Source of the DNA: Lachnospiraceae bacterium
GTDB taxonomy: Bacteria; Bacillota; Clostridia; Lachnospirales; Lachnospiraceae
Assembly (NCBI GenBank): GCA_017624835.1
Contig: JAGAMG010000043.1
Span: 1-64,000 of the forward strand
Direction of reading: 5' to 3'
Length of the DNA stretch: 64,000 nucleotides
The notes under the pieces are model-generated. The model had not been told where the DNA came from, did not search any database, and saw only the letters and a list, made by a program, of their open reading frames with translations. Numbering within the stretch: position 1 is the stretch's first letter; every line of letters starts with the position of its first letter. Shown here one piece after another: positions 17,501 to 51,828 of this stretch. A program made the position numbers and the translations under genes.

Positions 17501-18562
17501 TTACTCTCGCATCTGACGCATTAGCTTTTCCAACTCATCCGAATCCTGAAAAAAGCAATCCAAAAGTACCGGCTCATAATATTCCCCTCTGCCCTCCAGC
17601 ATAATTTCCCTGGCCTTTTCCATGCTCATGCCCTGCTTATACTGTCTCTTTGCCACCAAAGCATCAAACACATCTGCAACAGCCATAATTCTGGCTTCCA
17701 GAGGAATTTCCTTTTCCTTTAAGCCCTTGGGATATCCCTTGCCATTCCATTTTTCATGATGATAATTAGCTACATTAGAAGCGATTACCACAAACTCCGG
17801 TTCTGCAAGACGACTCATATTTTCCCGAATCAATCTGCCCCCCTCCTCCGCATGAAGCTTCATAATCGTGTATTCCTCATCGGACAAGGCTCCCGGCTTT
17901 CTTAAAATACTATCCGGTACCGTAATTTTACCAATATCATGCATAGGTGCTGCCTGCTTTAGATAATTTACAAAGTCCACAGTCAGCTCTTCCCTGTAGA
18001 TATTGTTTTCTATCATTTTTTTCACCAGATACTCTGTATAAATACTGGAATGCTTTACATGCTCACCTGTGGTACCATCCCTGCTTTCAATCAGGTTTGC
18101 CATAGTGATAATGATATCCTGCTGCAATTGGGTAATTTTTTCCAACTGCTGCTGTACCATCAGCTCCAAGCTACGCCTGTAATCCTCCAGTTCCACGGTA
18201 CGCCTCACACGACGTTGCATAATGGCGGGGATAAAGGGCTTTCCGATATAATCCACTGCTCCCACATTAAAACAGGCCTCTTCTGTCTCCGGTGTTCTGT
18301 CCGCAGTCAGAAAAATAACGGGAATCTTGCACCACTTAGGATTTTCCTGCAATAGCTTCATTACCTCAAAACCATCCATCTCCGGCATTTGAATATCCAA
18401 AAGGATTACCACGGGTTCATTTTTTTCCAGATACTGAAAAGCCATTTTTCCGGAATTTACTACCGCCACTCTATACTCCTCTGCCAATACCTTTTGCGCC
18501 ATCAGCAAATTTGTCTTATCATCATCCACTACTAAAATTGTTTTTTTGTCATTCTGCAACAA
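17501..18562 (-). CDS. Receiver-HD-GYP response regulator (c-di-GMP phosphodiesterase)
   Basis: About 353 residues. The N-terminal receiver has VVDDDK and the acceptor Asp in LLDIQMPEMDG; a coiled linker (about 125-150) leads to an HD-GYP domain with HD in MHDIGK and GYP in NGKGYPKG. HD-GYP enzymes hydrolyse cyclic di-GMP. It overlaps the end of the upstream kinase by 14 bp. No ATG fits: the frame opens with two TTG codons (18562 and 18559) just after GGAG, so a TTG start coupled to termination of the upstream gene is most likely. It lies between two hybrid kinases and is the obvious output protein of both. Confidence 0.9.
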   Translation of the reverse strand: MLQNDKKTILVVDDDKTNLLMAQKVLAEEYRVAVVNSGKMAFQYLEKNEPVVILLDIQMPEMDGFEVMKLLQENPKWCKIPVIFLTADRTPETEEACFNVGAVDYIGKPFIPAIMQRRVRRTVELEDYRRSLELMVQQQLEKITQLQQDIIITMANLIESRDGTTGEHVKHSSIYTEYLVKKMIENNIYREELTVDFVNYLKQAAPMHDIGKITVPDSILRKPGALSDEEYTIMKLHAEEGGRLIRENMSRLAEPEFVVIASNVANYHHEKWNGKGYPKGLKEKEIPLEARIMAVADVFDALVAKRQYKQGMSMEKAREIMLEGRGEYYEPVLLDCFFQDSDELEKLMRQMRE

Positions 18563-21500: not shown

Positions 21501-21620
21501 CATGTGCTCTGAATTCTCATAAGAGGATATGGTACCAAACACCAAATATACCATAACTCCCATAAATAATATATAAAACAGCCAGCGCATACCGGCCTGT
21601 GCCCGTCTCTCTTTTCCCAT
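18549..21620 (-). CDS. Hybrid histidine kinase with extracellular domain, 7TM region, receiver and HPt
   Basis: 1023 residues. One N-terminal helix, an extracellular beta-rich domain (about 35-180, 7TMR-DISM-like), seven membrane segments (185-395), HisKA with His410 in MSHEIRTPI, HATPase (NLLSNAVKYT, GTGLGLNLI), receiver with Asp710 in LMDHMMPEPDG, and HPt with His870 in TAHALKS, followed by a coiled C-terminal tail. All four phosphorelay sites sit on one chain, so it can pass phosphate via HPt to the HD-GYP regulator. GGAGG is 7 bases before the ATG. The 5-prime region contains the structured tandem repeats at 21652-21899. The extracellular ligand is unknown; carbohydrates are a common guess for this sensor type. 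Confidence 0.92.
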   Translation of the reverse strand: MGKERRAQAGMRWLFYILFMGVMVYLVFGTISSYENSEHMIQEGSVLNVAWERVYADNTRKQVSVPNNLDAKRGETVVLEAVLPEKIEEGNWLCFRSSQQDMRIYINEELRREYSTKETRTFGKTSASAYVFTKVYTEDAGKILRVEFSSNSIYAGTANQVYYGDRLAIWDDVARQYAPECLIAFLMVVLAITCIVFSNVIKFRSEKKIMLDYLGWGILMVAIWVLSENRLRQLIFPDVTVVSNLAYFCLMLLPLPFIAYINDIQEYRYRVWYYVIYWMVLLDFIICTVLQVLNIRDFFENILFMHGSILVVIILGVITTGIDIKEKRIESYKYVAIGLGVLMISAIAEIVKVYLNNGQMSGSLICLGMIFLLIMAASKTGKDVMNMDRQMQSALSDNASKVSFLAKMSHEIRTPINTLIGMNEMIARENQDKELETYIKNAQSAGRTLLALVNDILDFSRMESGHLNLTENVYQLASLVNDEVHMIQARAEKKFLEVVVNVDEKLPSYLYGDEVRIKQIISNLLSNAVKYTEKGTVTFSVSGDSSDEGEFFLRIAVADTGVGIQEKDLSKIFESFSRLEEKKYQNIEGTGLGLNLIKTLVEEMEGEIKVRSIYGKGSLFTVVLPQKVIDATPVGMRTEAFREEKEQLEKYQSGFVAPHARILAVDDNEMNHAVVKGFLKRTQVQLDTVLSGTDCLELCKENAYDIILMDHMMPEPDGIETLRLIRQQENGKNHRTPVIVLTANAVAGSREMYLSEGFAEYLSKPISPDKLENALRKFLPENLILPADAVEDEKKEPVSSRENLVMAEELPIQEHGRQISMKLGMSYCNGDEEMYFDLLDAYYKQGLRYVEILEKYFAEKDWKNYAVTAHALKSTSLNVGARSFSDEAKNHEMAGKEEKEDWIIRNWESFYQSLKEVLQEAADMLQENAGEEVVTETVADSQLTELSQEEYMEQCRQLLELIRNYEMSASEEKIQQMKTQTMEGLEPEKVQEMLAGLQEAIDGFDYAGAEELLETWMNGVVAE

Positions 21621-21651
21621 ACTCGTCCCTCCATGTGAGTGGTGCGTGTTG

Positions 21652-21899
21652 CTTGATTTTCTTCTTGCGTATTATCAACTCGCAAGCTCGTGCTTCGCAC
21701 TCATTGTCTGCTTTGCAGACTGCTTGCTCGTTATCGCGTTGAAAATCAAATGCCGCTGTGCGGCGCTTGATTTTCTTCTCGCGTACATTCATACTCGCAA
21801 GCTCGTGCTTCGCACTCATTGTCTGCTTCGCAGACTGCTTGCTCGTTATCGCGTTGAAAATCAAATGCCGCTACGCGGCGCTTGATTTTCTTCTCGCGT
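21652..21899 (-). repeat. Tandem structured repeat, two 114/115-bp units plus a partial third
   Basis: Units begin at 21652, 21766 and 21881 (the third is cut after about 19 bp). Read on the minus strand, the sense of the downstream kinase gene, each full unit folds as P1, a hairpin of GAAAATCAA and TTGATTTTC capped by GCCGC-NNN-GCGGC; then P2, GCAAGC/GCTTGC, enclosing P3 (GTCTGC-NAA-GCAGAC) and P4 (GTGC-GAA-GCAC). In unit 1 the parts are P1 21741-21775, P2 21722-21727 with 21682-21687, P3 21706-21720 and P4 21690-21700. The array ends 31 bp before the kinase start codon. Small ORFs crossing it follow the repeat and are not credible genes. Confidence 0.9.
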
Positions 21900-21965
21900 A
21901 TATTTTAACATATTTCGACATAATTATCTATATTTTACGGTGCAGAAAGATGGAAAAAACAATAT

Positions 21966-22009
21966 AAAAACAGTGCCTTACGCTTATAAAAAGCTTAAGA
22001 CACTGTTTC
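21966..22009 (-). terminator. Terminator of the isomerase operon
   Basis: Near-perfect stem AAACAGTGTCTTAAGC / GCGTAAGGCACTGTTT with an A/T loop, followed on the minus strand by TTATATTG. It closes the xylulokinase-DUF4867-isomerase operon. Confidence 0.85.
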
Positions 22010-22041
22010 ACATTCATTTTTGATTATCAAATTGCTCCAAC

Positions 22042-23526
22042 TTATGCAAAAGGATTCTCAGTAGGATACATCATACCCTTAGGCTGGTTGAAGTTCAAAT
22101 CCTCTACGGGTACACCGATGTACTTGAATACCTCATATAAAGCCTTTCCATAGTGACCAAATGCAACTGCACCATGATGAGGATAGTTCTTCTCAATCAA
22201 TACATGGCGATAGAAGCGTCCCATTTCAGGAATAGCGAATACACCGATACCACCAAAGGACTTGGTTGCTACAGGCAGAACCTCGCCCTGTGCAATATAA
22301 GCACGCAGCTTGCAGTCAGCAGTGGACTGTAAACGATAGAAGGTAATATCGCCGGGAACAATATCTCCCTCCAAAGTACCCTGGGTAACTTCCTCGGGAA
22401 GATTTCTAGCCATAATCTTCTGATACTTCATACTGCATGCCGCCAGCTTCTTAGAGTTGGTATTACCACAGTGGAAGCCCATGAAGGTATCATTGTGGGT
22501 GTAATTATATTTACCCTCAATGGATTCCTTATACATATCAGCAGGAACGGTGTTGTTAATATCAAGTAAAGTAACGATATCCGCACTTACTGCTGCACCG
22601 ATGAACTCACTTAAGCATCCGTAAATATCAACCTCACAGGATACAGGGATTCCCATACCGGTGAGACGGCTGTTTACATAGCAGGGCACAAATCCAAACT
22701 GGGTCTGGAATGCAGGCCAGCACTTACCGGCAATTGCCACATACTCTCTATAGCCTCTGTGCTCCTCAACCCAGTCAAGAAGAGTTAATTCGTACTGAGC
22801 CAGCTTAGGAAGTACCTCAGGCTTCATATTACCTGCGCCAAGCTCCTCTTCCATTTCCTTAATCTTTGCAGGAATTCTTTCATCACCATCATGCTTCTTG
22901 AAGGCTTCAAATAAATCCAATTCGGAATTTTCTTCGATTTCAACGCCCAAATCATAAAGGGGCTTAATAGGTGCATTACATGCAAGGAAGTTCAAAGGTC
23001 TGGGACCAAAGGAAATAATCTTCAGATTCTTAAGACCAACGATTGCTCTTGCAATAGGCACAAACTCATTAATCATATCTGCACATTCAGCAGCGGTTCC
23101 TACCGGATTCTCAGGGATATATGCCTTTACATTACGCAGCTTTAAGTTGTAGCTTGCATTCAGCATACCACAGTAAGCATCGCCACGACCATCCAATAAA
23201 TCAGCCTGACTCTCTTCTGCTGCTGCAATATACATTGCGGGACCATCAAAATGCTTAGCCAGCAAGGTTTCGGAAATTTCAGGACCGAAGTTTCCAAGGT
23301 ACACGCAGAGTGCATTACAGCCTGCTGCCTTAATATCCTCTAATGCCTGTACCATATGAATTTCACTTTCTACGATACATACAGGGCACTCATAAATATT
23401 GTCCATGCCGTATTTTGCAGCGTAAGCCTCTACCAGAGCCTTTCTTCTGTTTACAGATAAGCTTTCAGGGAAACAGTCACGGCTTACTGCTACGATACCG
23501 ATTTTTACCTGGGGTAAATTGTTCAT
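22042..23526 (-). CDS. L-fucose/L-arabinose isomerase family protein
   Basis: 494 residues from the ATG at 23526 (AAGGAGG 8 bases upstream); the longer frame to 23583 has no ribosome binding site. The sequence looks like the FucI/AraA superfamily: alpha/beta N-terminal domains (VKIGIVAVSRDCFPES) and a C-terminal barrel domain with metal- and substrate-site candidates in MGFHCGNTNSKKLA and YPHHGAVAFGHYG. Such enzymes interconvert aldoses and ketoses with Mn2+. It does not closely resemble classical AraA or classical FucI, so the sugar (L-arabinose, L-fucose, D-arabinose or xylose) is open. It is last in an operon behind a xylulokinase-like kinase, which favours a pentose. Confidence 0.8.
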   Translation of the reverse strand: MNNLPQVKIGIVAVSRDCFPESLSVNRRKALVEAYAAKYGMDNIYECPVCIVESEIHMVQALEDIKAAGCNALCVYLGNFGPEISETLLAKHFDGPAMYIAAAEESQADLLDGRGDAYCGMLNASYNLKLRNVKAYIPENPVGTAAECADMINEFVPIARAIVGLKNLKIISFGPRPLNFLACNAPIKPLYDLGVEIEENSELDLFEAFKKHDGDERIPAKIKEMEEELGAGNMKPEVLPKLAQYELTLLDWVEEHRGYREYVAIAGKCWPAFQTQFGFVPCYVNSRLTGMGIPVSCEVDIYGCLSEFIGAAVSADIVTLLDINNTVPADMYKESIEGKYNYTHNDTFMGFHCGNTNSKKLAACSMKYQKIMARNLPEEVTQGTLEGDIVPGDITFYRLQSTADCKLRAYIAQGEVLPVATKSFGGIGVFAIPEMGRFYRHVLIEKNYPHHGAVAFGHYGKALYEVFKYIGVPVEDLNFNQPKGMMYPTENPFA

Positions 23527-23629
23527 TGTATAAATCCTCCTTATTATGTAACATTTTATAATATTATGTTCTTTTATTTCCACTTACTTGTTATTGCTTA
23601 TTTTAGGTACTACTTGTTTTTACATTTCT

Positions 23630-24271
23630 TTACTCGTTTACATCAAGATTCTTGCCCTTAAGTCCAAGGAACGCACCTTCATCCAAGCCACCCTCGGGAT
23701 GACCAATCAGCCATTTATTGACAGCAGTAAGCAATGCATCCTCACTATCAGCCTTGCCATCCGTTACCTTAGCATGAGCCCCCTGCAAATCATAATTGGT
23801 ACCCTTAGGAAGCACGATTGCTACTTGGAAGCCCTTTCCATCCAATGCACAGGGAGCATAGTGCATACTGGTTGCAAAAATCTCCACACCACAGCCTGCG
23901 GGCAAAAGGAATGCTTCCACCTTGGAAGTATCATAGGTAAAATCCTCTTCCACATCCGCCAAAAGCCCTAACAATAATACCGCATCGGTAGCTGCAATGT
24001 TAAGCTCTGAATCGCGATGATATTCCAACGCATTGAGCTTGGAATTGTGTCCATTACAATAACCAATCTGAATGGGCATTTCTCCATAGCATACCTTAGA
24101 AAGCTGCGCCATAACAGGCAGTGCCTCCAATTCCGCCACTGCCGGCTGATACTCCACACCTTCCGGCAAGGGAGTTGACTTAAGAGTTTCCACCAAGTCG
24201 GATAAATCAACATTGGTAATGACTCTGCCATACTTGCGGAATGCCGGGTCATTAACAGATAATATTTTCAT
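23630..24271 (-). CDS. DUF4867-like protein, cupin-like, in sugar isomerase operon
   Basis: 213 residues, soluble. It resembles the DUF4867 family that I associate with sugar isomerase/kinase operons in Bacillota; I cannot give a biochemical function. Visible features are GYCNGHNSKLNALEYHRDSE near 70-90, with His and Glu residues like a metal-binding cupin, DAVLLLGLLADVEEDF, and EIFATSMHYAPC near 130-140. The position between kinase and isomerase suggests a role in sugar handling, for example as a mutarotase or sugar-binding protein, but that is inference. The gap to the kinase upstream is 90 bp with no terminator. Confidence 0.65.
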   Translation of the reverse strand: MKILSVNDPAFRKYGRVITNVDLSDLVETLKSTPLPEGVEYQPAVAELEALPVMAQLSKVCYGEMPIQIGYCNGHNSKLNALEYHRDSELNIAATDAVLLLGLLADVEEDFTYDTSKVEAFLLPAGCGVEIFATSMHYAPCALDGKGFQVAIVLPKGTNYDLQGAHAKVTDGKADSEDALLTAVNKWLIGHPEGGLDEGAFLGLKGKNLDVNE

Positions 24272-24361
24272 ACCAAACTTCTCCTTTATATTTTAATCTT
24301 TCTATATAGAATATGCAACCAAATTTGTACGTTCTATACCTTTGAAATACCTTACTAAGCT

Positions 24362-25834
24362 TTACTTTGTAATAATATCATAAAGGGGCTTGCAGGCAGG
24401 ATAAATCTCCTTAAACTGTGCATATCGTTCTTCATATTTCGCAACAAGCTCTGCCTCAGGCTCTACGGTATCCACTACCTTAACCATTTTGGCTGCAATC
24501 TCTTCCACGCTTGCATATTCCCCACAGGCTACTGCTGCCAGCATGGCACCGCCAAGGGCAGGTCCTTCTTCACTTTCAATCACATCCACTTTCAAGTTCA
24601 GCACATTGGCAATCATTTTCTTCCATAAAGGACTCTTTGCACCGCCACCACAAATCTTTGTACGTTCTAAGTTAATACCAAGGGATTTTGCAACCTCTAA
24701 GGAGTCGCGAAGGGCAAATGCCACACCCTCCAATACCGCCTGAGTCATATCCTCTCTGGTAGTATCCATGGTCATACCAATAAAGGTACCTCTGGCATTG
24801 GGATTGTTGTGTGGCGAACGCTCTCCCATCAAATAAGGCAGGAAGTATACATGGTTCTCTCCCAGCTTATCAATATTCTTCTGCTCCGCTGCATAGTCCT
24901 TGGTACCAATAATTTCATCCATCCACCATTTATTACAGGAAGCCGCGCTGAGCATACATCCCATTAAATGATAATGTCCATCGGCATGAGCAAAGGAATG
25001 CAGGGCATTAAATTTATCCACTCCAAAATTGTAGGAGGAAATAAAGATGGTTCCGCTGGTTCCCAGAGAAATATTACACATATTATCTCCAACAGTACCT
25101 GTTCCCACAGCTGCTGCCGCATTATCTCCGGCACCGGCTGCCACCACTACATTCTCCGGAATCTCCAATTCCTTTGCAATGGCAGGAAGCACCGTTCCCA
25201 CTGCCTCGTAGCTTTCATAGCATTTTGCAAGCTGGGAGGGCTTTACTCCGCAGATATCGCACATTTCCTGTGACCAGCATCTATTCTTTACATCAAACAA
25301 AAGCATGCCGGAAGCATCGGATACGTCCGTGCAATGCACACCGGTCAGCTTGTATGCGATATAATCCTTGGGAAGCATAATCTTTTCTATTTTGGCAAAA
25401 TTTTCCGGTTCTTTATTCTTTACCCACAAAATCTTAGGCGCAGTAAAGCCTGTAAAGGAAATATTTGCTGTATATTCAGAAAGCTTTTCCTTGCCGATTA
25501 CATTATTTAAATAATCACATTCTTCATAGGTTCTTCCGTCATTCCACAAAAGCGCGGGACGTATTACATTGTCCTCCTTATCTAGGATTACCAGACCGTG
25601 CATCTGTCCGCCAAAGCTGATACCTGCCACCTGACTCTTATCCGCATCTGCAAGCAGCTCCTTTAACCCTGCCATGGTCTGTTCATACCAATCCTCCGGC
25701 TTTTGTTCCGACCACCCGGGATTGGGGAAATAAAGAGGATATTCCTTTGATACAATATTTAATATTTTTCCTTCACTGTCCATTAACAGTAGCTTGACAG
25801 CAGATGTTCCTAAATCAATACCTATATACAGCAT
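24362..25834 (-). CDS. xylB: Xylulokinase-like FGGY kinase
   Basis: 490 residues from the ATG at 25834, with AAGGAGG 6 bases upstream; the longer frame to 25867 runs into the leader. FGGY features: YIGIDLGTSAVKLLLMD, SFGGQMHGLV (family xISGQMHG region), WNDGRT, ISLGTSGTIF, and ICGGGAKSPLWKKMIANV near the C-terminus. It phosphorylates a ketopentose with ATP, most likely D-xylulose or L-ribulose. First gene of the operon with DUF4867 and the isomerase, divergent from a LacI-type regulator. Confidence 0.88.
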   Translation of the reverse strand: MLYIGIDLGTSAVKLLLMDSEGKILNIVSKEYPLYFPNPGWSEQKPEDWYEQTMAGLKELLADADKSQVAGISFGGQMHGLVILDKEDNVIRPALLWNDGRTYEECDYLNNVIGKEKLSEYTANISFTGFTAPKILWVKNKEPENFAKIEKIMLPKDYIAYKLTGVHCTDVSDASGMLLFDVKNRCWSQEMCDICGVKPSQLAKCYESYEAVGTVLPAIAKELEIPENVVVAAGAGDNAAAAVGTGTVGDNMCNISLGTSGTIFISSYNFGVDKFNALHSFAHADGHYHLMGCMLSAASCNKWWMDEIIGTKDYAAEQKNIDKLGENHVYFLPYLMGERSPHNNPNARGTFIGMTMDTTREDMTQAVLEGVAFALRDSLEVAKSLGINLERTKICGGGAKSPLWKKMIANVLNLKVDVIESEEGPALGGAMLAAVACGEYASVEEIAAKMVKVVDTVEPEAELVAKYEERYAQFKEIYPACKPLYDIITK

Positions 25835-25876
25835 ACGATACCTCCTTGTACAGTCGTGCTCGTGCACGCTATCTTT

Positions 25877-25905
25877 ACTATAACTTCTCTGAGAAAAAAA
25901 ATCAA
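25877..25905 (-). promoter_or_regulatory. Promoter of the xylulokinase operon
   Basis: On the minus strand TTGATT (25900-25905), 17-bp spacer, TATAGT (25877-25882). Downstream, before the ribosome binding site, repeated CGTGC/GCACG half-sites (about 25848-25862) could be an operator for the divergent LacI-type protein. Confidence 0.65.
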
Positions 25906-26064
25906 TAGTCCCTTTCCAGAAATCTCATTTTCATTAAATTGCAACATTTCAAGGAATTGTTTCTAGTAAAAATGCCAATTGGGAACTGTTTGACTTGTCA
26001 CTAAAATTATGTTAGGGTTTTTATATTATTGAAAACGCAAAGAGAGCATGATGTGGAGGTACAC

Positions 26065-27084
26065 ATGGCTACTATTAAAGAAATTGCAGCATTGGCAGGA
26101 GTATCCCGAGGTACTGTAGACCGGGTTTTAAATAACCGTGGCTCCGTAAATCCTGCCACCGCACAAAAGATACAGGAAATTGCAAATGCATTGGATTATA
26201 AACCCAACCGAGCCGGATTGGTTCTGGCTGCCCAAAAGAAAAAACTCAAGTTGGGTGTGATTCTTTTTTCTACGGACAATCCCTTTTTCTTGGATGTATT
26301 AGCGGGTATCAAAGAAAAAGCCGAGGAGCTTGCCGGCTATAACTGTACGGTTATTATCAAGCAGGTAGCCTTTGGCGTTGAGGAGCAGTTAAAAGCAGTG
26401 GAGGAGCTGCTTGCCCAGGAGGTAAACGGCATTGCCCTGTCTCCTTACAATGATGACCGCATCCGCAAATGTATCAATGAACTTTTTGAACAAGGCATTC
26501 CGGTGGTTACCTTTAATACGGATATTGAAAATTCCAAGCGCCTTGCTTATGTGGGAAGCCACTACAAAAAAAGCGGGGAAACTGCTGCAGGATTGTTGCA
26601 GCTGATGACCCATGGAGAGGTAAATATCGGTATTATTACCGGTTCCTCCAATATTCTCTGTCACACTGAACGCATTGCCGGCTTTTCAGAATCCCTAAAG
26701 CCTTATAATGACCGCATCCGCATTATCGATATTGCAGAAACTCATGACGATGAATTTGAAAGCTATGAAAAGACCTCAGCGCTTTTAAAAAAGCATCCTG
26801 AAATCAACGCCCTTTACTTTGCCGCCGGTGGTGTCTATGGTGGATGTCGAAGTGTCACCGCATTGGGACTTAAGGACAAGCTACGCATTATTGCTTATGA
26901 TATGGTACCTACCACAAAAGCACTTTTAGAGGATGGAACTATATCTGCAACCATCTGCCAATTGCCCAAGGTACAGGGAAGCAAACCTCTCTCCCTTTTA
27001 TTTGCCTATCTGACTACAGGAGAGTTACCGGAAAAGGAATTCAATTATGTAGCAGTGGATATTCGCATTAAAGAAAATCTGTAA
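26065..27084 (+). CDS. LacI family sugar-responsive regulator
   Basis: 339 residues from the ATG at 26065 (GGAGG 5 bases upstream); a longer in-frame start at 26029 lacks a site. The N-terminal helix-turn-helix is ATIKEIAALAGVSRGTVDRVLNN in outline, followed by a hinge helix and a periplasmic-binding-protein fold that resembles ribose-type binding proteins (LGVILFSTDNPFFLDVLAGI, VVTFNTDIENS, IGIITGSS, IIAYDMVPTTKALLEDG). It most likely represses the divergent xylulokinase operon until a sugar binds. The effector cannot be read, but the hydrophilic PBP-type pocket fits a free monosaccharide. Confidence 0.88.
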   Translation: MATIKEIAALAGVSRGTVDRVLNNRGSVNPATAQKIQEIANALDYKPNRAGLVLAAQKKKLKLGVILFSTDNPFFLDVLAGIKEKAEELAGYNCTVIIKQVAFGVEEQLKAVEELLAQEVNGIALSPYNDDRIRKCINELFEQGIPVVTFNTDIENSKRLAYVGSHYKKSGETAAGLLQLMTHGEVNIGIITGSSNILCHTERIAGFSESLKPYNDRIRIIDIAETHDDEFESYEKTSALLKKHPEINALYFAAGGVYGGCRSVTALGLKDKLRIIAYDMVPTTKALLEDGTISATICQLPKVQGSKPLSLLFAYLTTGELPEKEFNYVAVDIRIKENL

Positions 27085-27111
27085 AAAATGTAAAATATTG
27101 TTGCGACACTC

Positions 27112-27140
27112 TTGTCATTTACAAGATATGGTAGTATAAT
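27112..27140 (+). promoter_or_regulatory. SigmaA-type promoter of the tocopherol-cyclase-like gene
   Basis: TTGTCA (27112-27117), 17-bp spacer, perfect TATAAT (27135-27140). A small CTAC-GAAAT-GTAG hairpin followed by seven T lies 15-35 bp downstream; its stem is probably too short to attenuate. Confidence 0.8.
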
Positions 27141-27216
27141 GAATGAAGTTGCTACGAAATGTAGTTTTTTTATACTATTTATACTCATGTGGGGCATGAG
27201 GGGAGCGGGATAACAA

Positions 27217-28350
27217 ATGAATCTTTCTGATTACAAAAGAAATGCATATATGTTGCGTGGTTCCATGACAAAACGCGGATATGTACGCTGGTGGCATTCC
27301 TTCACCGGTGTTTGTTCCGCAACCCAGGAAACACGCACTTTTTTTGTGGAGTATTTTGTAATTAATCCCGGATTAGGTCAGGAGCAGCCCATTTTAGGAC
27401 AACATCCCTATTTTAAAAAACGAGGAATGAAGCCATCCTATGTAATGGTAAAAGCCGGTGTGTTCCCCAATGAACAGGGGGAAGGCGGCAAAGAGCTCCA
27501 CGCTTTTTATCCCATCAGCTCCATGAAGGTAGCAAATGACCCTTTTTATGTACAGATTGAAGACTGTTCCTTTAGTGAGACCAAGCTTTCCGGTTATGTG
27601 GATGTATCCTTTAACGAAGCCAGGCATCGTTCTCTTATGACGGATGTGGGCTACATGGAATGGGATTTGGAAATGAACAAGGTAATTTCCTGTCATACAG
27701 GAGCTATTGCAAATCGCTTTTTCACAGCCCTGAATGCTTTGGAAAGCTTTTGGCACGGAGAAGGTATTCGCACCCAGTTTCGTGGCACTGTAACTTTGGA
27801 TAATACCACCTATGAAGTTAAAGAAGATACCTGTCATGGTTATGCGGACAAGCATTGGGGACGGAATTTCAACAGTCCCTGGCTACAATTTGCTTCCAGC
27901 CACCTGATAAGCGAACGCACGGGCAAAGCATTAAAGCACTCCGCCCTTGCAATCGACGGCAATAACCCGAGACTTTTGTTTCTACCCCTTAAGCGTAAGC
28001 TCATGATACAGCTTACCTATACGGGTGAGGATTTTGAATATAATTTTGCAAAACCCGGTCTCCTGTCCCGTTGTAAATGGAAGGTAAAGGAAACCAACAA
28101 GCGTTACATTTGGCGCATTAAAGCGCAGAACAAAACCTCCGTCATCAAGATTTCCTGTAGCTGTATGAAGGAGCAAATGATGCCCCTTAGCTACGAGTCC
28201 CCTGATGCTATTGTACGCAAGAAACCATTATTGGCCGGCGGAGCAGGTTTAGGTGTTATTGAAATCTACCGCAGGGCTCCCGAGGGTCTGGAGTTAATAG
28301 ACCGCCTTACCATTGCCAATGGCTTCTGTGAATTTCAAAAGAAAGCATAA
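27217..28350 (+). CDS. Tocopherol cyclase-like lipocalin-fold protein
   Basis: 377 residues, soluble. Motifs recall the tocopherol cyclase-like family: RGYVRWWHSFTG near 20, WHGEGIRTQF near 178, and GYADKHWGRNFNSPWLQFAS near 210, the equivalent of the family Y-x-E-K-N-W-G-x-x-F-P-x-x-W segment. Plant and cyanobacterial members cyclise quinol precursors. Bacillota lack tocopherol, so the true ligand here is unknown, perhaps a lipid or quinone-like molecule. It has its own strong promoter and a terminator and stands as a single gene. The ribosome binding site AGGGGAG lies about 12 bases before the ATG, rather far. Confidence 0.7.
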   Translation: MNLSDYKRNAYMLRGSMTKRGYVRWWHSFTGVCSATQETRTFFVEYFVINPGLGQEQPILGQHPYFKKRGMKPSYVMVKAGVFPNEQGEGGKELHAFYPISSMKVANDPFYVQIEDCSFSETKLSGYVDVSFNEARHRSLMTDVGYMEWDLEMNKVISCHTGAIANRFFTALNALESFWHGEGIRTQFRGTVTLDNTTYEVKEDTCHGYADKHWGRNFNSPWLQFASSHLISERTGKALKHSALAIDGNNPRLLFLPLKRKLMIQLTYTGEDFEYNFAKPGLLSRCKWKVKETNKRYIWRIKAQNKTSVIKISCSCMKEQMMPLSYESPDAIVRKKPLLAGGAGLGVIEIYRRAPEGLELIDRLTIANGFCEFQKKA

Positions 28351-28365
28351 AATAATGATAAAAAC

Positions 28366-28420
28366 AAGACTGTATCCGGGATATTTCTCACATCTGAGTC
28401 AAAGCCCCGAATACAGTCTT
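28366..28420. terminator. Bidirectional terminator
   Basis: Stem AAGACTGTATCCGGG / CCCGAATACAGTCTT with one mismatch; TTATTATA follows on the plus strand and GTTTTTATC on the minus strand. It serves the cyclase-like gene and the Rrf2 gene. Confidence 0.88.
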
Positions 28421-28423
28421 TTA

Positions 28424-28864
28424 TTATATACTATAATTCCAATTTTCCAGCCGCTGCTTACGGCGTTCCAGCAAATCTCCGATGGTTACATGATCCACCA
28501 CCTGATTTACCGCTTCATACAATTCCTTCCACACTCCAAGGGTTTCGCAGGTATCACATCTTTCACAGGAATCCACTCCGTTTTCCAAACAGGTAACCGG
28601 TGCCAGCGAGCCTTCTGTGAGGCGCAATATCATACCCACAGTGTACTCCTCCGGTGTCTTAGCCAATCGATAGCCCCCCTGGGCTCCTCGTACACTTTTG
28701 ACATAGCCGGCTTTATTTAAGATTGCAATAATCTGCTCCAGATATTTCTCAGAAATACCCTGTCTACCCGCAATTTCTTTTACCTTGATACATTCTCCCC
28801 TGTCATTACTTGCCAAATCAAGCATAACACGGACGGCATATCTGCCCCTTGTTGAGATTTTCAT
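28424..28864 (-). CDS. Rrf2 family regulator, CymR-like by context
   Basis: 146 residues, typical Rrf2 length. N-terminal winged helix (KISTRGRYAVRVMLDLA, QGISEKYLEQIIAIL) and dimerisation helix. Cys25 matches the position of the redox-sensing Cys described for staphylococcal CymR; in addition Cys92, 100, 103 and 106 form C-x7-C-x2-C-x2-C, and the first aligns with IscR Cys92, so an iron-sulfur or zinc cluster is possible. CymR represses cysteine and methionine uptake and synthesis genes together with CysK. Here the gene is last behind cysK-metNIQ (8 bp after metQ), which strongly suggests that role. Whether it senses Fe-S or thiol state is open. Confidence 0.85.
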   Translation of the reverse strand: MKISTRGRYAVRVMLDLASNDRGECIKVKEIAGRQGISEKYLEQIIAILNKAGYVKSVRGAQGGYRLAKTPEEYTVGMILRLTEGSLAPVTCLENGVDSCERCDTCETLGVWKELYEAVNQVVDHVTIGDLLERRKQRLENWNYSI

Positions 28865-28872
28865 AGTTCCTC

Positions 28873-29685
28873 CTAGTTAAAAGGAATAGCACCACCATTA
28901 TAATTTTCGGTAATGTAAGTCTTAATTGCATCGGATGTCAATACATCAATTAATGCTTTGGTCTTCTCAGTTCCTTCATTGCCTTCCTTTACCGCAATGA
29001 TATTTACATAAGCAGCAATTGCCTCGGACTGGTTGGTTTCGCAAAGAATGGCATCCTCTGCTGCACTGTAGCCCGCTTCCATTGCATAATTACCATTCAT
29101 AATACCAAAGGTTACTTCCGGAAGGGTTCTGGGAATCTGTGCAGCTTCCAATTCAACAAACTCAATATTGTGAGGATTCTCAACAATATCATTGATGGTT
29201 GCAGTCAAGCCTGCCCCCTCTTTCAGAGTGATATAACCATTTTCCTGTAACAAAAGCAAGGCTCTTGCCTCATTGGTAGTATCATTGGGAACTGCCACGG
29301 TTGCACCGTCAATCTTTGCTAAATCGGATTCCTTTCCGGGATACAGACCAAAGGGCTCATAATGAATACCACCGGCATTTACCAGATGGGTTCCTTTTTC
29401 CTCATTGAAGCTGTTCAAGTAAGAAATGTGCTGGAAGTAATTGGCATCAAAATCACCTGCTTCCACTACTTCGTTGGGCTGTACATAATCGTTGTAAACC
29501 TGGATTTCCAAGGTGTAGCCCTGCTCAGCCAAAAGGGGCTTTGCCTGCTCCAAAATCTCAGCGTGGGGTACAGCGGTTGCTGCTACCTTAATGGTCTTTG
29601 CATCGGTTTCCTTGCTGCCGCATCCCGCAAAAGCTGCAACGCTCAGTGCTGCAACAGCAACCAAAGCTAATACTTTCTTTTTCAT
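28873..29685 (-). CDS. metQ: MetQ-type substrate-binding lipoprotein
   Basis: 270 residues from the ATG at 29685 (AAGGAGGAG upstream); the longer frame to 29712 lacks a site. Lipoprotein signal with lipobox AFAGC, then the NLPA fold: KVAATAVPHAEILEQ, DANYFQHISYL, and YEPFGLYPGK. It binds methionine or a related sulfur amino acid outside the membrane and delivers it to MetI/MetN. cysK and a CymR-like regulator in the same cluster would also fit cystine or cysteine as substrate. Confidence 0.9.
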   Translation of the reverse strand: MKKKVLALVAVAALSVAAFAGCGSKETDAKTIKVAATAVPHAEILEQAKPLLAEQGYTLEIQVYNDYVQPNEVVEAGDFDANYFQHISYLNSFNEEKGTHLVNAGGIHYEPFGLYPGKESDLAKIDGATVAVPNDTTNEARALLLLQENGYITLKEGAGLTATINDIVENPHNIEFVELEAAQIPRTLPEVTFGIMNGNYAMEAGYSAAEDAILCETNQSEAIAAYVNIIAVKEGNEGTEKTKALIDVLTSDAIKTYITENYNGGAIPFN

Positions 29686-29739
29686 AATATTTCTCCTCCT
29701 TAATTTATGCATAATACGGCTTATTAAGCCATTAATGCC

Positions 29740-30402
29740 CTACTTCATGCGCTTGTCCAGCTTCTTGGACAGCTTCATGCCGATAATCTGTAATACCTGT
29801 ACCAATAATACTAACAGCACCACAGTTACCATCATAATATCAGTCTGATAACGGTAATATCCATAGCGGATTGCAATATCACCCAAGCCGCCACCGCCAA
29901 CAGCACCTGCCATGGCAGAATAACCCAAAATGGTACCCAAAGCAATGGTAGCCCCCACAATCAGGGAAGTACGGGATTCTGCCAACATAACCTTCCAGAT
30001 AATGGTCCAAATATTAGCTCCCATACTCTGCGCTGCCTCAATCACACCGGGGTCAACCTCCAAAAGGGAGGATTCCACCATACGGGCAATAAAAGGCGCA
30101 GCCGCAAGGGTCAGGGGCACAATGGTTGCTGTAGGTCCATAGCTCTGCCCAACAATCACACGGGTCAGGGGAATTACCATAATCAGCAAAATAATAAAAG
30201 GTATACTTCTTACAATATTTACAATAATATCCAACACCTTGTAGATTACTTTATTGGGACGAAGTCCGTCCTTGGCAGTAATTACCAAAGCAATTCCCAT
30301 GGGAAGTCCCAATATATATGCCAACAACGTGGAAACCACAGTCATATAAAGTGTTACAAAGGTGCCTTCTACAAGCATCATAATCGTTGCATTATCCCAC
30401 AT
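29740..30402 (-). CDS. metI: Methionine-type ABC permease
   Basis: 220 residues with five or six membrane helices. The EAA loop is EAAQSMGANIWTIIWKVML near residues 120-140; the N-terminus TFVTLYMTVVSTLLAYILG is typical of MetI. It overlaps the end of metN by 11 bp, showing translational coupling. It forms the channel of the MetNIQ importer. Confidence 0.92.
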   Translation of the reverse strand: MWDNATIMMLVEGTFVTLYMTVVSTLLAYILGLPMGIALVITAKDGLRPNKVIYKVLDIIVNIVRSIPFIILLIMVIPLTRVIVGQSYGPTATIVPLTLAAAPFIARMVESSLLEVDPGVIEAAQSMGANIWTIIWKVMLAESRTSLIVGATIALGTILGYSAMAGAVGGGGLGDIAIRYGYYRYQTDIMMVTVVLLVLLVQVLQIIGMKLSKKLDKRMK

Positions 30403-31402
30403 AAGAATCCAGCTCCTCCACCTCTAATTTTCTATCCTTCAGATAGTGAATCATCTTATTGCCGATGGCCTCATCCTCCGGTAACTGTAATATCATCTGC
30501 CCATGGGCAATTCCGTTAATATCCTTGGTATCTGCCAAAAGGATATTGACCGGTGCTTTGCACTCCAGCACCATATTGGCAATCACAGGCTCAAAGGAAG
30601 AATTCTCGCTAAATACAATACGAATACAGCGTTTACCCTGCATTTCCGTAGCCTTGGGGTTTACCATAAATACCAGCTTTTTGGCCGCCGCAGTCTTGGG
30701 ATGGGAGAAAACCTGCTCCACCGTACCATGCTCTGCCAATTCGCCGGCATCAATTATGGCTACATGGGAACAAATTTCCTGCACTACCGCCATTTCATGG
30801 GTAATAATCACAATAGTAATGCCATACTTCTGATTGATTTCCTGCAATAATTTCAAAATCGCCTTGGTAGTTGTGGGATCAAGGGCACTGGTAGCCTCAT
30901 CGCAAAGTAAAATCTTAGGATTATTGGCAAGTGCTCTTGCAATCGCTACACGCTGCTTCTGTCCGCCGGACAGCTGTGCAGGATAGCTTTTTGCCTTATC
31001 CGCCAAACCTACGATTTCCAAAAGCTCCATGGCACGTTCCTTGGCTTCTGCTCTGCTCTTTCCTACAATTTCCATGGGAAAGCATACATTATCCAATACA
31101 TTTCTCTGCATCAGCAAATTAAAATGCTGGAAAATCATTGCAATTTCCGTGCGAACCTTTCTCAGTTCATCCTCTTTTAAGGCAGATAAATCCTTATCCT
31201 CAACCACTACCGTTCCTGTGGTGGGCTTTTCCAAAAAATTTAAGCACCTTACCAAAGTTGACTTTCCTGCACCACTCATACCGATAATGCCATAAATATC
31301 GCCCTTGTGAATGTCAAGGTTGATTCCCTTTAAGGCCTCTACCTGATTTTCTTTTCCAATAAATGTTTTTGAAACGTTTTTAATCTGAATAATGGGTTCC
31401 AT
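30392..31402 (-). CDS. metN: Methionine-type ABC importer ATPase with NIL domain
   Basis: 336 residues. Walker A GMSGAGKST, Q-loop, signature LSGGQKQR, Walker B ILLCDEATSALDP, H-loop ITHEM; residues about 255-336 are the C-terminal NIL regulatory domain that inhibits transport when substrate is abundant. AGGAGG lies 8 bases before the ATG. The 5-prime region between cysK and metN carries the repeat array at 31427-31703, ending only 24 bp before the start codon. Confidence 0.94.
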   Translation of the reverse strand: MEPIIQIKNVSKTFIGKENQVEALKGINLDIHKGDIYGIIGMSGAGKSTLVRCLNFLEKPTTGTVVVEDKDLSALKEDELRKVRTEIAMIFQHFNLLMQRNVLDNVCFPMEIVGKSRAEAKERAMELLEIVGLADKAKSYPAQLSGGQKQRVAIARALANNPKILLCDEATSALDPTTTKAILKLLQEINQKYGITIVIITHEMAVVQEICSHVAIIDAGELAEHGTVEQVFSHPKTAAAKKLVFMVNPKATEMQGKRCIRIVFSENSSFEPVIANMVLECKAPVNILLADTKDINGIAHGQMILQLPEDEAIGNKMIHYLKDRKLEVEELDSYVG

Positions 31403-31426
31403 TATTGCACCCTCCTGTTTATTCCG

Positions 31427-31703
31427 GGGCAGAGCCTCCTGCCTACTACGGGCAGAGCCTTCTGCCTACTACGGGCAGAGCCTCGAAAAAACTTCGTTTT
31501 TCCTCGGTCGCTTCGCTCGCCAAATCCTCTGTCAAATATCTGCATGCGCAAGCGCTGCATCTATTTGGCAGCCCTTCTGCCGTCTACGGGCAGAGCCTCG
31601 AAAAAACTTCGTTTTTCCTCGGTCGCTTCGCTCGCCAAATCCTCTGTCAAATATCTGCATGCGCAAGCGCTGCATCTATTTGGCAGAGCACTTGGCTCTG
31701 CCC
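31427..31703 (-). repeat. Tandem structured repeat between cysK and metN
   Basis: A 99-bp segment (31473-31571) is repeated without change at 31588-31686, period 115. Two shorter 23-bp units starting GGGCAGAGCC lie at 31427 and 31450. On the minus strand (metN sense) each long unit holds CAAATA...TATTTG with GCGC-TT-GCGC at its tip, a GCGAAGC mini-hairpin, and AAAAAC-GAA-GTTTTT. GGGCAGAGCC and its complement GGCTCTGCCC bracket the array. It fills the 325-bp gap. No promoter or terminator with a T-run was recognised, so metNIQ is probably read from cysK through the array. Confidence 0.9.
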
Positions 31704-31727
31704 TATTCGGATATTCTACCACACTAT

Positions 31728-32666
31728 TTAGCTTTCTGTAAACATCGGGGTGGAAAGATATCTGTCTCCTGAGTCGGGTAATAATGCCACAATTGTTTTG
31801 CCTGCATTTTCAGGACGTTTGGCAAGCCGGGTTGCCGCGTGGAGCGCAGCACCGGAAGTAATGCCTACCAATACCCCTTCCTTTTGTGCCATTAATCTGC
31901 CTGCCTCATAGGCATCCTCTGTGGTAACCGTGATAATTTCATCATAAACCTGAGTATCCAATATAGAAGGAACAAAGCCGGCTCCAATTCCCTGAAGCTT
32001 GTGGGGACCTGCCTGACCACCGGACAAAACGGGAGAATCCGCAGGCTCCACTGCCACTATTTTAATTTCCGGATTCTTGGATTTCAGATACGTACCAATA
32101 CCCGTAAGGGTTCCTCCCGTACCCACACCTGCTACAAAGATATCAACCTGCCCATCCGTATCTTCCCAAATTTCCGGTCCCGTAGTTGCCACATGGGCTG
32201 CCGGATTGGCGGTATTATCAAACTGTCCCAAAATAACTGCACCGGGGATACTCTTTTCCAATTCCTGTGCCTTTTCAATAGCACCATTCATCCCTTTGGC
32301 ACCATCTGTCAGCACTAGTTCTGCTCCATATGCCTTTAACAAAGTCCTTCTCTCCATACTCATGGTTTCCGGCAATGTCAGAATGGTACGATATCCCTTA
32401 ACAGCCGCCACACATGCCAGACCGATTCCGGTATTACCGGAGGTAGGCTCTATGATGGTTGCACCGGGCTTCAAAATCCCTTTTTTCTCTGCATCCTCCA
32501 CCATTGCCAATGCCACTCTGTCCTTTACACTACCTGCTGGATTCAAATATTCCAGCTTAGCAAGCAGCTCTACCCCATCCACTGCCTGTTCTTTCATATA
32601 ATTATTTACTTTCAATAAGGGAGTATGCCCAATCAACTGTGTTGCCTGCGTAAAAATCCTACTCAT
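31728..32666 (-). CDS. cysK: Cysteine synthase (O-acetylserine sulfhydrylase)
   Basis: 312 residues, standard CysK length. PLP lysine in [11 protein letters not shown], substrate loop [10 protein letters not shown], phosphate-binding [10 protein letters not shown], and C-terminal [12 protein letters not shown]. It makes L-cysteine from O-acetylserine and sulfide with PLP; in B. subtilis it also serves as corepressor partner of CymR, which fits the regulator downstream. GAGGAGG is just upstream of the ATG. First gene of the probable cysK-metNIQ-cymR unit. Confidence 0.95.
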
Positions 32667-32723
32667 ATAACTCCTCCTCGCATCCTTATGCTGTTTCTAC
32701 TATCAAAAGATGTTCTTTCATTT

Positions 32724-32740
32724 CCTACTAACTTGATAGG
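32724..32740. promoter_or_regulatory. Inverted repeat upstream of cysK, candidate Rrf2/CymR operator
   Basis: CCTACTAACTTGATAGG has half-sites CCTA and TAGG separated by 9 bp, about 60 bp before the cysK start. The minus strand carries TACAAT (32751-32756) just upstream, so a protein bound here would block transcription. Assignment to the local Rrf2 protein is inference. Confidence 0.4.
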
Positions 32741-32842
32741 TTTATTATGAATTGTATCTTACTACGCCCCACAAAAGATGTCAATATCCCTTTGGAAAAA
32801 ATACCCTTTTCATTTCTCCAAGGAATATGTATAATGTAACCA

Positions 32843-33178
32843 GCGCAAAAGAAAAACAAGCGCCGCAAAGCGGCATTTGTTTTTCTTGCGCGGTTAACGA
32901 GCAAACGGACTGCGAAGCAGGCCAAAGAGCGCGTAGCGCGGGTTTGCGAGTCTCAACAAGTACACCATTCACCGACCCCAAGCCCCACAACGCATGCAAA
33001 CAGAGCGTAGCGCGGGTTTGCGAGTCTCAACAAGTACACCATTCACCGACTCCAAGCCCCACAACGCATGCAAACAGCGCGTAGCGCGCATTTGCGAGTT
33101 CCCAACAACCACCTTCACGCGCATCCAAGCCCCACAACGCATGCAAACAGCGCGTAGCGCGCATTTGCGAGTTCGCAA
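32843..33178 (+). repeat. Structured repeat array in the aroA leader
   Basis: The first unit holds P1 (32843-32891: GCGCAA and GAAAAACAA arms capped by GCCGC-AAA-GCGGC), P2 GCAAAC (32901-32906) with GTTTGC (32942-32947), P3 around CTGC-GAA-GCAG (32907-32923) and P4 GCGC-GTA-GCGC (32929-32939): the same order as the 21.7-kb element. Three shorter units of 73-74 bp follow, each keeping only a GCAAA.../...TTTGC hairpin over GCG-TA-GCGC. The array ends about 41 bp before the aroA start and, with the cysK promoter region, fills the 555-bp gap 32667-33221. Reading frames through it are not genes. Confidence 0.88.
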
Positions 33179-33221
33179 CAGACATATCAAAATAACAATA
33201 ATACAACAGGAAATAACAAAA

Positions 33222-34589
33222 ATGCAAACATCAACCTACCCCGTCCCAACCATATACGATACACTAACAGCTTCCCCCAGCGAATCCCACCATGCCCCTC
33301 TTCATATCCAGGTTCCCGGCTCCAAAAGCATAACCAACCGTGCCCTGCTACTTGCCACCTTGGCAGAGGGAATGTCCACCCTGCGGGGCGTACTATTCAG
33401 TGACGATTCCAGACATTTCCTGAAATGCATTCAGGATTTAGGCTTCACCACCACAGTGGATGAAACAAACAAAGTCATTACCGTAACCGGTCATGGTGGA
33501 GCTGTTCCCTTGTCCGAAGCCCATCAATACGTGGGCAGTGCCGGAACAGCAGCACGTTTTCTCACTGCCTATCTGGGGATTTCCAACGGCACCTACCATA
33601 TGGATGCTTCAGACCAAATGCGCAAACGCCCCATGGCTCCTTTACTTTCATCCTTACAGGAATTAGGCTGTGAAGTAACCTATGGGCAATCTGCCCCCCA
33701 TACCGGTGGATATTCCCCAACCCGTGAAGGCTACTTTCCCTTCACACTCCGCAGTCACGGCTTTGGCAAAGACTCCATTACCATAAATATTGACCACAGC
33801 AGCCAGTTTTTAAGTGCTCTGCTGATTGCCTCCTGTCTGTCCAAACAAGACTTTACCGTACATACAGAGGGTACCCACGGCATGGCATATATTGAAATGA
33901 CCTGCAAAATGATGGAACAATTTGGTGTTTCTGTAGAAAAAACGGACGATACCACCTTTGTGACCAAGAAAGGGCAATCCTATCAGGCTCTGGATTATCA
34001 GATTGAACCGGATGTATCTGCTGCTTGTTATTTTTATGCTATGGCACCATTATTACATGTACCCGTATTGGTAGAGCATGTACATTTTGATTCCCTGCAG
34101 GGAGATGTGGCATTTATCCATATTTTAGAACAAATGGGCTGTACCGCTCAGGATACCGAAAAAGGCATCCTGGTAACGCCTCCTGAAACTTTAGTATTTC
34201 ATGGGGTAACTGTGGATATGTCCGCCTGCTCCGACCAGGCAATTACTTTAGCAGCCATTGCTCCCTTTGCAGACAGTCCCACCACCATTACCGGCATCGG
34301 TCACATCCGTTTTCAGGAAAGCAACCGTATCAAGGCAATTGTTACGGAGCTTGGTAAAATGGGCATTCGCTGCGAGGAAACAGAAAGCAGTATTACCATC
34401 CATCCCGGGACTCCTAAGGCATCCCTTGTGGACACCTACGATGACCACCGCATGGCAATGGGCTTTTCATTAATCGGTTTGCGTTGCCCCGGTATTGTCA
34501 TTGATAATCCCGGATGTTGCGGCAAAACCTTTGAAAATTACTTTAAGGTATTGGAACAAACCATTAACATCTTAGTAAACAATATCTAA
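33222..34589 (+). CDS. aroA: 5-enolpyruvylshikimate-3-phosphate synthase
   Basis: 455 residues from the ATG at 33222, about 25 residues longer than usual at the N-terminus. An upstream in-frame extension (from 32994) is encoded by the repeat array and is rejected. Motifs: PGSKSITNRALLLATLAEG, GSAGTAARFLTA, DASDQMRKRPMAPLL, QFLSALLIA, and DDHRMAMGFSL near the end. It joins phosphoenolpyruvate and shikimate-3-phosphate in the shikimate pathway. No other aro gene is adjacent. A weak AGGAAA ribosome binding site precedes the ATG, and the structured leader may affect expression. No clear terminator follows in the plus direction. Confidence 0.94.
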   Translation: MQTSTYPVPTIYDTLTASPSESHHAPLHIQVPGSKSITNRALLLATLAEGMSTLRGVLFSDDSRHFLKCIQDLGFTTTVDETNKVITVTGHGGAVPLSEAHQYVGSAGTAARFLTAYLGISNGTYHMDASDQMRKRPMAPLLSSLQELGCEVTYGQSAPHTGGYSPTREGYFPFTLRSHGFGKDSITINIDHSSQFLSALLIASCLSKQDFTVHTEGTHGMAYIEMTCKMMEQFGVSVEKTDDTTFVTKKGQSYQALDYQIEPDVSAACYFYAMAPLLHVPVLVEHVHFDSLQGDVAFIHILEQMGCTAQDTEKGILVTPPETLVFHGVTVDMSACSDQAITLAAIAPFADSPTTITGIGHIRFQESNRIKAIVTELGKMGIRCEETESSITIHPGTPKASLVDTYDDHRMAMGFSLIGLRCPGIVIDNPGCCGKTFENYFKVLEQTINILVNNI

Positions 34590-51582: not shown

Positions 51583-51604
51583 TTCATTTGACCTCCTTTC
51601 TTGT

Positions 51605-51803
51605 GGGCAGTACAGAACATATTTCCGGCTCCATGCCCATTTTGCTAGCTTCTTGGCGCCTACCTCTTGGATTCCCTTCACTTTCTTGGGCAGTACAGAA
51701 CACATTTCCAGCTCCATGCCCATTTTGCTGGCTTCTTAACGCCTGCTTCTTGGCTTTCCTACGCTTTTGTGGGCAGCACAGAGCATTTTTCCGGCTCCAT
51801 GCC
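51605..51803 (-). repeat. Three-copy 83-bp tandem repeat upstream of the NUDIX gene
   Basis: Units start at 51605, 51688 and 51771 (period 83; the third is partial). On the minus strand each begins GGGCATGGAGC and returns GCTCTG/TTCTG...TGCCC, forming a hairpin of about 34 nt, then a spacer with AAGAAGC. The array ends 22 bp before the NUDIX start codon. The 445-bp gap 51583-52027 also holds the terminator at 51829-51870 and a short tandem repeat at 51942-52001. Confidence 0.85.
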
Positions 51804-51828
51804 CACTTAATTGCCAAATGTTATCCCA

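Follow-up and report, generated by a model that had tools for sequence, protein, structure and literature searches.

What is a repeat built of several hairpins doing at two distant places in one bacterial genome? The question is raised by a stretch of 64,000 nucleotides from a Lachnospiraceae bacterium (contig JAGAMG010000043.1 of assembly GCA_017624835.1, positions 1 to 64,000; here called the window), in which an initial annotation, made from the sequence alone, described the same series of helices at 21652-21899 on the minus strand and at 32843-32952 on the plus strand. The helices are present at both loci in the order described there, and both loci are made of one unit of ~110 bp: a long hairpin (P1), followed by a stem (P2) around two further hairpins (P3 and P4). 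That reading of the structure was sound, but it overlooked the main fact, which is that the unit begins at a -10 box or a stop codon before a gene. The safest statement of our results is that this element is a dispersed multi-hairpin repeat, confined to Lachnospiraceae in the samples searched, which is anchored at the end of -10 boxes or at stop codons and is oriented with transcription. Its position and orientation at predicted gene starts suggest mobile DNA that lands at active gene starts.

Position, spread and distribution of the element

The sites analyzed here are a part of all matches found; they were chosen by covariance-model score, except for a few glnN and araA/araD loci chosen for synteny. 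Loci were fetched as 60 stretches, 16 more from the genome of the window and a further 40, and were then rescored. A first set comprised 68 sites scoring at least 50 bits and the final set 107 distinct sites. The reference point at each site is the foot of P1, defined as the base opposite the end of the P1 3' arm; this anchor could be located at 105 sites and is absent at 2 of the 107. A -10 box was accepted with at most one mismatch and was searched for between 5 nt inside the foot and 21 nt upstream of it.

In the first set, 43 of 68 sites have exact TATAAT within the 20 nt that precede the element; the nine other 20-nt bins, reaching to -200, contain it at 0-2 of 67-68 sites each. With one mismatch allowed the hexamer precedes 55 of the 68, whereas 1000 letter shuffles give 12.9 on average and 22 at most. 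In the final set a -10 box is found at 92 of the 105 sites with a locatable foot (63 of the 92 boxes are of the extended, TGN, type), and at 89 of these 92 the foot falls between -4 and +2 nt relative to the end of the box, out of a search range of -5 to +21. The register varies (-4, 0, +1), and at 32 of the 92 sites the foot overlaps the last four bases of the -10 box. The letters of the foot vary as well: TAA at 47 of 105 sites, GTA at 15 and TGA at 11. An upstream reading frame ends in a stop codon within -4 to +8 of the foot at nine of the 13 sites without a -10 box, and at 12 of the 92 with one. Two arabinose-type loci illustrate this second kind of anchor: in genome G274 the element begins at the stop codon preceding araD, and in G277 it directly follows the stop codon of an araA-like gene, ahead of an apparent terminator.

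A same-strand gene follows the element on the 3' side at 98 of the 107 sites, as scored by script, at a median distance of 64 nt. Among the nine sites without a scripted gene, two (L113 and L291) have less than 50 nt of sequence on the 3' side, one (L311) has no reading frame in the available sequence, and three (L079, L084 and L102) do have a same-strand reading frame, which the rule of the script passed over. At L090 an apparent terminator comes next 3' of the element; L123 and L128 complete the nine. The genes behind the element are unrelated; among others they encode glutamine synthetase III, an Orn/Lys/Arg decarboxylase, an EF-G-like GTPase, EPSP synthase, Hsp70, cytidylate kinase, a Mur ligase, RlmN, a primase and a ParA-like ATPase. 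No single conserved gene class was found by Pfam among 20 proteins from 20 sites, three of which were unmatched and two more of which had a match below the cut-off only. Names such as glnN, aroA, dnaK, dnaG, cmk, murC and rlmN are based on Pfam, while hprK, pgcA, dhfr, grpE, uvrC and araA/B/D were assigned by eye or by operon position.

As the initial annotation proposed, a covariance-model search brought out further copies, dispersed both in the source genome and in other Lachnospiraceae. BLAST places the element at 19 positions in the genome of the window, and a covariance model built from 16 units gives 25 matches there, the highest number seen per genome. Counting this genome, matches occur in 65 of 101 genomes of the same genus; at family level they occur in 29 of 200 genomes and 28 of 199 genera. 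In a class-wide sample of 391 genomes only four have a match at an E-value of 1e-6, all within Lachnospiraceae. Judged by HprK, the closest relatives of the host (among the best 80 of 588 candidates) are Lachnospiraceae, including an Acetatifactor sp. and Lachnospiraceae bacterium 28-4. The element was unmatched in a search of phages and plasmids, and the open-licence literature of PubMed Central held no paper on it among the matches listed.

Two genes allow the age of the promoters to be compared with that of the element. In the genome of the window, the region before glnN reads TTGACC-N18-TAAAATGT, behind which stand first two and a half units, then a short native leader. A TTGACC-spaced promoter is found at 21 of 30 glnN loci of the genus, that is, at 20 besides this filled copy (at two, L341 and L343, it lies more than 200 nt from the glnN start codon). 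The model places the element itself at the start of glnN in no more than 2 of the 30 loci, those of the genome of the window and of G281; a weak match in L342 lies elsewhere. Upstream of hprK, an extended -10 box is present at 50 of 78 usable loci, compared with 6.1 after shuffling, and the element at one of 80 (again the best 80 of 588 candidates). Judged from these loci, the promoters are older than the element at both genes where the comparison can be made. An empty-site comparison at the end of araA is of little use, because the following sequence differs among genomes.

Relatedness among the copies indicates that the element spreads within genomes. When each unit is compared with the copies at other loci, the most similar one belongs to the same genome for 49 of 94 units; with shuffled labels this share averages 0.067 and reaches 0.170 at most. 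The hprK/pgcA elements of different genomes are 0.64-0.73 alike, while most are 0.87-0.92 like a copy in their own genome; the exception is L119, whose closest copy is in another genome. Some pairs of copies are 97-99% identical over the first ~113 nt and stand before different genes; for three such pairs the 50-nt flanks upstream were compared and show 8-18% identity. Some near-identical pairs differ in the -10 hexamer, with TACAAT or TATGAT in one and TATAAT in the other.

Fold, covariation and the level of pairing

The fold of the 248-nt element at the first locus is more stable than expected from its composition, with z scores against dinucleotide shuffles of -7.5 as RNA and -6.1 as DNA (0 of 200 shuffles as good); for the second locus z is -4.8. 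Among 16 units from the genome of the window 96.1% of cells pair and nine pairs show two-sided changes. Four of five covariation measures exceed all 500 shuffles in this set; the number of further pair types does not (12, compared with 14.9). In the alignment of 107 units from 92 sources 97.1% of cells pair, two-sided changes affect 33 of 37 pairs, and all five measures exceed all 500 shuffles, with 547 cells of two-sided change against 131 and a covariation of 0.407 against 0.126; these counts lean towards the model, to which the alignment was fitted. Control structures slid by one to three columns on the same alignment all score below 0.04.

The paired changes between copies in P1, P2 and P4, which the initial annotation took as a sign of selection on the fold, are real, and covariation is strong in both the small and the large set. 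A conserved multi-hairpin fold is well supported. Covariation alone does not establish selection on it: the same pattern can arise when DNA replication switches templates, a process able to create and repair stems (PMC8794818), and pairing in the element reaches promoter bases that are probably untranscribed.

The evidence for this last point comes from the outer part of P1. The usual spacing from a -10 box to the transcription start (+1) is ~7 nt. With +1 predicted ~7 bases after the box, outer P1 would fall outside the transcript. The outer 10 nt of the P1 3' arm nevertheless match the 10 bases before the predicted +1 of their own site better than those of other sites (5.14 for own arms, 3.78 for swapped arms, maximum 4.07 in 1000 swaps, n=92). 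These values come from a free-register control, which is fairer than a test in which the register is itself chosen by pairing and which is biased to the own arm. Variant -10 boxes ending in TGAT and TACT are also matched by the arm. Two further features were counted over the whole fold. With one constant G.T column excluded, 37 of 3693 standard pairs are G.T (1.0%), compared with 45 of 710 (6.3%) in 33 tRNAs from the same loci. The 330 hairpin loops include 245 of three bases, among which 206 are GNA, and the four-base loops divide into 20 GNRA, 19 GNYA and 26 of other types. Loops of the GNA and GNNA kind follow a rule for stable DNA hairpins, and GNRA is an RNA rule. Foot matching, rare G.T and loop types together favour pairing at the DNA level, whether selection or template switching brought it about. 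They would be compatible with a further function of P2-P4 as RNA.

The two loci of the window and related repeats

At the first locus, on the minus strand, an extended -10 box (TGTTAAAAT, 21902-21910), recognised in the sequence and by the -10 test across all sites, stands directly before unit 1 (21792-21899; 130.7 bits by the covariance model). Fold and pair counts place P1 of this unit at 21850-21898, with a CGCG foot, a conserved G.T/C.A step and a GCCGC-GTA-GCGGC tip, and P2 at 21793-21846, where it encloses P3 (GTCTGC-GAA-GCAGAC) and P4 (GTGC-GAA-GCAC). The P2 stem contains a symmetric tandem G.A step (ACGAGC..GCGAGT); this step and P3 are near-invariant among units of this genome, and the G.T and C.A step of P1 is almost constant. 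Unit 2 follows at 21677-21784 (129.4 bits) and then, at 21651-21670, ~20 nt left of a third unit, the P1 5' arm only; the whole was called as a tandem repeat at 21651-21904. The gene 3' of this site (18549-21620, minus strand) encodes 1023 amino acids, the first 400 of which show a weak, sub-threshold match to 7TMR-DISM_7TM. At the second locus, on the plus strand, the -10 box TATAAT at 32830-32835 is followed by the outer P1 foot TAACC (32837-32841), which lies between the box and the predicted +1 and is complementary to the GGTTA that ends the P1 3' arm. The unit itself covers 32842-32952 (99.8 bits). Decayed partial repeats of P4 and the 3' side of P2, with a period of ~74 bp, extend over 32953-33180 (the called array spans 32923-33180 and takes in the end of the unit), and the EPSP synthase gene aroA, identified by Pfam, lies at 33222-34589.

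Other tandem repeats are present in the window. One, at 31427-31690, is also made of hairpins (a 115-bp unit twice, plus 23-bp repeats); it precedes a minus-strand gene at 30392-31402 and has a TAGAAT box upstream. It was rejected as a further dispersed family, having two matches in the genome including itself, the other of only 34 bases. The remaining repeats are at 51603-51805 (83 bp), 664-783 (18/36 bp) and 5891-5947 (27-bp period).

No known Rfam family corresponds to the element: against Rfam 15 the window has no match at gathering score, and in 20 scanned loci none falls on the elements. Clostridiales-1 RNA (RF01699), the Rfam family nearest to it, was rejected as its identity and is a sub-threshold relative only, with a best score of 20.4 bits at the window element against a cut-off of 48. 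The two are similar in some respects. Clostridiales-1 is dispersed and multi-copy in the same genomes (matched in 12 of 16 searched, 11 above the cut-off), and it consists of a long hairpin followed by a stem with tandem G.A (aUGAGcA..UgCGAAu); unlike the element it has an extra helix closing the whole, 166 positions and other hairpins. It was listed in 2010 as a candidate RNA and not judged cis-regulatory (PMC2864571). Six of ten copies inspected have TATAAT with at most one mismatch in the preceding 20 nt (one exact), compared with 0-2 in other bins, so promoter anchoring may extend beyond the element of the window. Up to 33 matches to Clostridiales-1 occur per genome (among G112, G087, G177 and G029; loci L352-L357). 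A larger repeat at L133 and L134 in G029 contains a three-way module, ATGAGCAATC..GATTGCGAAT, inside a longer recurring flank, and repeats of this type match both the element model and Clostridiales-1 weakly at some places. A TwoAYGGAY RNA (RF01731; 109 bits) lies near a glnN locus (L018:5734-5899).

Variants of the unit itself were also seen by eye. At L299, L301, L303, L304, L308, L088 and L120 a full unit is followed by a half unit ending at or near the P1 loop, which looks like the next tandem copy lost between GCGAAGC repeats. L129, L131 and L135 (G112 and G144) carry reduced tandem relatives, in which P1 starts after the -10 box, the second stem is shorter and there is an extra hairpin; in L129 and L131 the outer P1 foot appears in the first unit only.

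Mechanism, alternatives and significance

The mechanism that fits best, and that we regard as moderately probable, is that a DNA-hairpin repeat enters open promoters in a targeted way and that its stem is later matched to the target by template switching. It builds on what was computed here: dispersal, position, orientation, older promoters at two genes, relatedness within genomes and the match of the foot upstream of the predicted start. A non-autonomous repeat of Lachnospiraceae would copy itself, in one orientation, to the transcription starts of existing sigma70-type promoters, placing its left foot at the -10 end or, less often, directly behind a stop codon. Once inserted, it would be transcribed as the 5' leader of an mRNA, or as an intercistronic or 3' spacer. 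The folding form would be single-stranded DNA of the coding (non-template) strand, exposed in an open promoter or R-loop; insertion would use this exposed strand, and hairpin-templated template switching would fit the P1 3' arm to the local promoter or stop-codon sequence. The fullest version of this idea we offer as doubtful: a mobile element folding as single-stranded DNA might enter the open transcription bubble, or the DNA behind stop codons, copy the last -10 bases into its stem and become a leader with the promoter intact, without a recognised transposase.

A REP-associated tyrosine transposase (RAYT), which the initial annotation proposed to look for, did not turn up in the source genome: no Y1 transposase (PF01797) was found there, at 85% completeness. 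The same domain is without match in 11 of 20 high-copy genomes, this one included and G096, G177, G196 and G217 at 99-100% completeness, and is present in the other nine; on this ground mobilisation by RAYT or IS200 was rejected. A reverse transcriptase is rejected as a present requirement by the lack of any PF00078 (RVT_1) match in 9 of the 20. Duplication of the -10 box as a target site was rejected too, since the second TATAAT hexamers seen behind some copies resemble the starts of decayed tandem units and own flanks hardly beat swapped ones.

To our knowledge REP, ERIC, BOX and MITEs are intergenic, with looser positional rules. REP/BIME with RAYT and the PATEs of IS200/IS605 are short dispersed hairpins suited to single-stranded DNA, whose foot pairs with a target-like flank. 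By this anatomy the element resembles them in its short dispersed hairpins and flank-paired foot; it differs in having four helices per unit, in being anchored at promoters and codirectional with the gene, and in occurring at high copy in the 11 genomes lacking Y1. The yeast retrotransposon Ty3 inserts at transcription starts, of Pol III genes, by a retroviral-type integrase. The element is like it in this choice of site, an analogy also named in PMC3942029, but Ty3 is eukaryotic, and 9 of the 20 high-copy genomes have no reverse-transcriptase domain. Among the promoter-targeting transposons TnGBS, ISLre2 and ISKra4, the first two are the closest precedent; as described in PMC3942029, all three insert ~15-17 bp upstream of the -35 box and have a DDE transposase and terminal inverted repeats. 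The element lies downstream of the -10 box and is geneless, with no detected target duplication and no clear terminal repeats.

Several observations weigh against targeted insertion. Neither a transposase nor other machinery was found, as the Y1 and RVT_1 searches show. No target-site duplication was detected at 90 single-unit sites (direct repeat 4.87 in own flanks, 4.59 swapped, maximum 4.88), where the longest direct repeat reaches at least 8 at eight sites; terminal inversion is 4.93, compared with 4.24 after shuffling (maximum 4.46, n=105), at most a trace of ~5 nt. By rule 13 of the 105 sites have no -10 box, and at four of them a nearby stop codon is missing too; L079, which belongs to the 13, carries TATAAA, a hexamer that the rule does not count. 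The transcription starts are predictions from -10 spacing, pairing reaches the very end of the foot at 68 of 105 sites rather than at all, and the arm-swap test ignores relatedness. The sites are partly dependent (L302 and L310 are a single site in two species, 0.97 identical). In G196 ~45 nt of upstream flank including the -10 box are common to the copies L087, L099 and one in L100, and at 9 of 68 sites a second TATAAT lies just after the element, in the first 20 nt; the copied unit may thus sometimes carry its own -10 box. Finally, the position could be kept by selection, and similarity within genomes could partly be concerted evolution. The shared flank in G196 resembles a truncated unit, which would mean that arrays may hold several -10 boxes.

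The principal alternative, rather unlikely in our estimation, is a selected RNA leader: a structure at the 5' end that protects the mRNA or binds a general regulator. Its place at +1 would then reflect a need for the structure to be 5'-terminal in order to work, and behind a stop codon the element would be the first RNA left untranslated. Its regular place before genes, 64 nt from the start at the median, the strong covariation in the transcribed P2-P4, the near-invariant tandem G.A step and P3 in the genome of the window, and the tandem copies all agree with this. A leader of this kind has to be reconciled, however, with the lack of a coherent gene set among the 20 proteins and with the majority of hprK and glnN loci, which lack the element; at L277 (G277) it lies between the araA-like stop codon and an apparent terminator, and at L090 an apparent terminator follows. 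The P1 foot moreover matches bases that are probably untranscribed, and G.T pairs are rare. That rarity, and the many two-sided changes, would also be expected of an old dispersed palindrome with neither function nor special insertion, its pairing perfected by template switching and its place at +1 left over after purging elsewhere. Stems can be created and repaired by template switching (PMC8794818), and in a yeast assay arm-matching mutations depend on high transcription and are linked to RNA-DNA hybrids (PMC3820800). We nevertheless consider such a neutral origin improbable: purging explains the exact foot poorly, with 89 of 92 promoter sites within -4 to +2, because copies 10-30 nt deeper in the leader should be equally harmless.

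Very improbable, in our view, is a promoter switch in DNA, in which P1, with the -10 box in its foot, would extrude as a cruciform or non-template hairpin and so control promoter opening. The cover of the last four -10 bases by the foot at 32 of 92 sites, and its match to variant boxes, speak for such a switch. The varying register of the foot and the stop-codon sites that by rule have no promoter speak against it, and spontaneous extrusion is not favoured by GC-rich hairpin tips.

Targeted insertion remains the reading we prefer. Dozens of unrelated genes across many genera have the element starting at their -10 box, in a single orientation, and at the two genes tested it joined existing promoters. 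If selection rather than insertion accounts for its position, a major gut family has in it a widespread mRNA leader that is so far uncharacterised. For repeats of this kind in general there is a warning here, in that covariation may stem from template switching in DNA and not from RNA function. Should insertion be targeted, these bacteria possess something that recognises open promoters and inserts DNA there, which would link transcription, R-loops and DNA mobility and provide a natural source of new 5' leaders; and if the element does move as folded single-stranded DNA, it would be a bacterial counterpart to the retroelements that seek out transcription starts.

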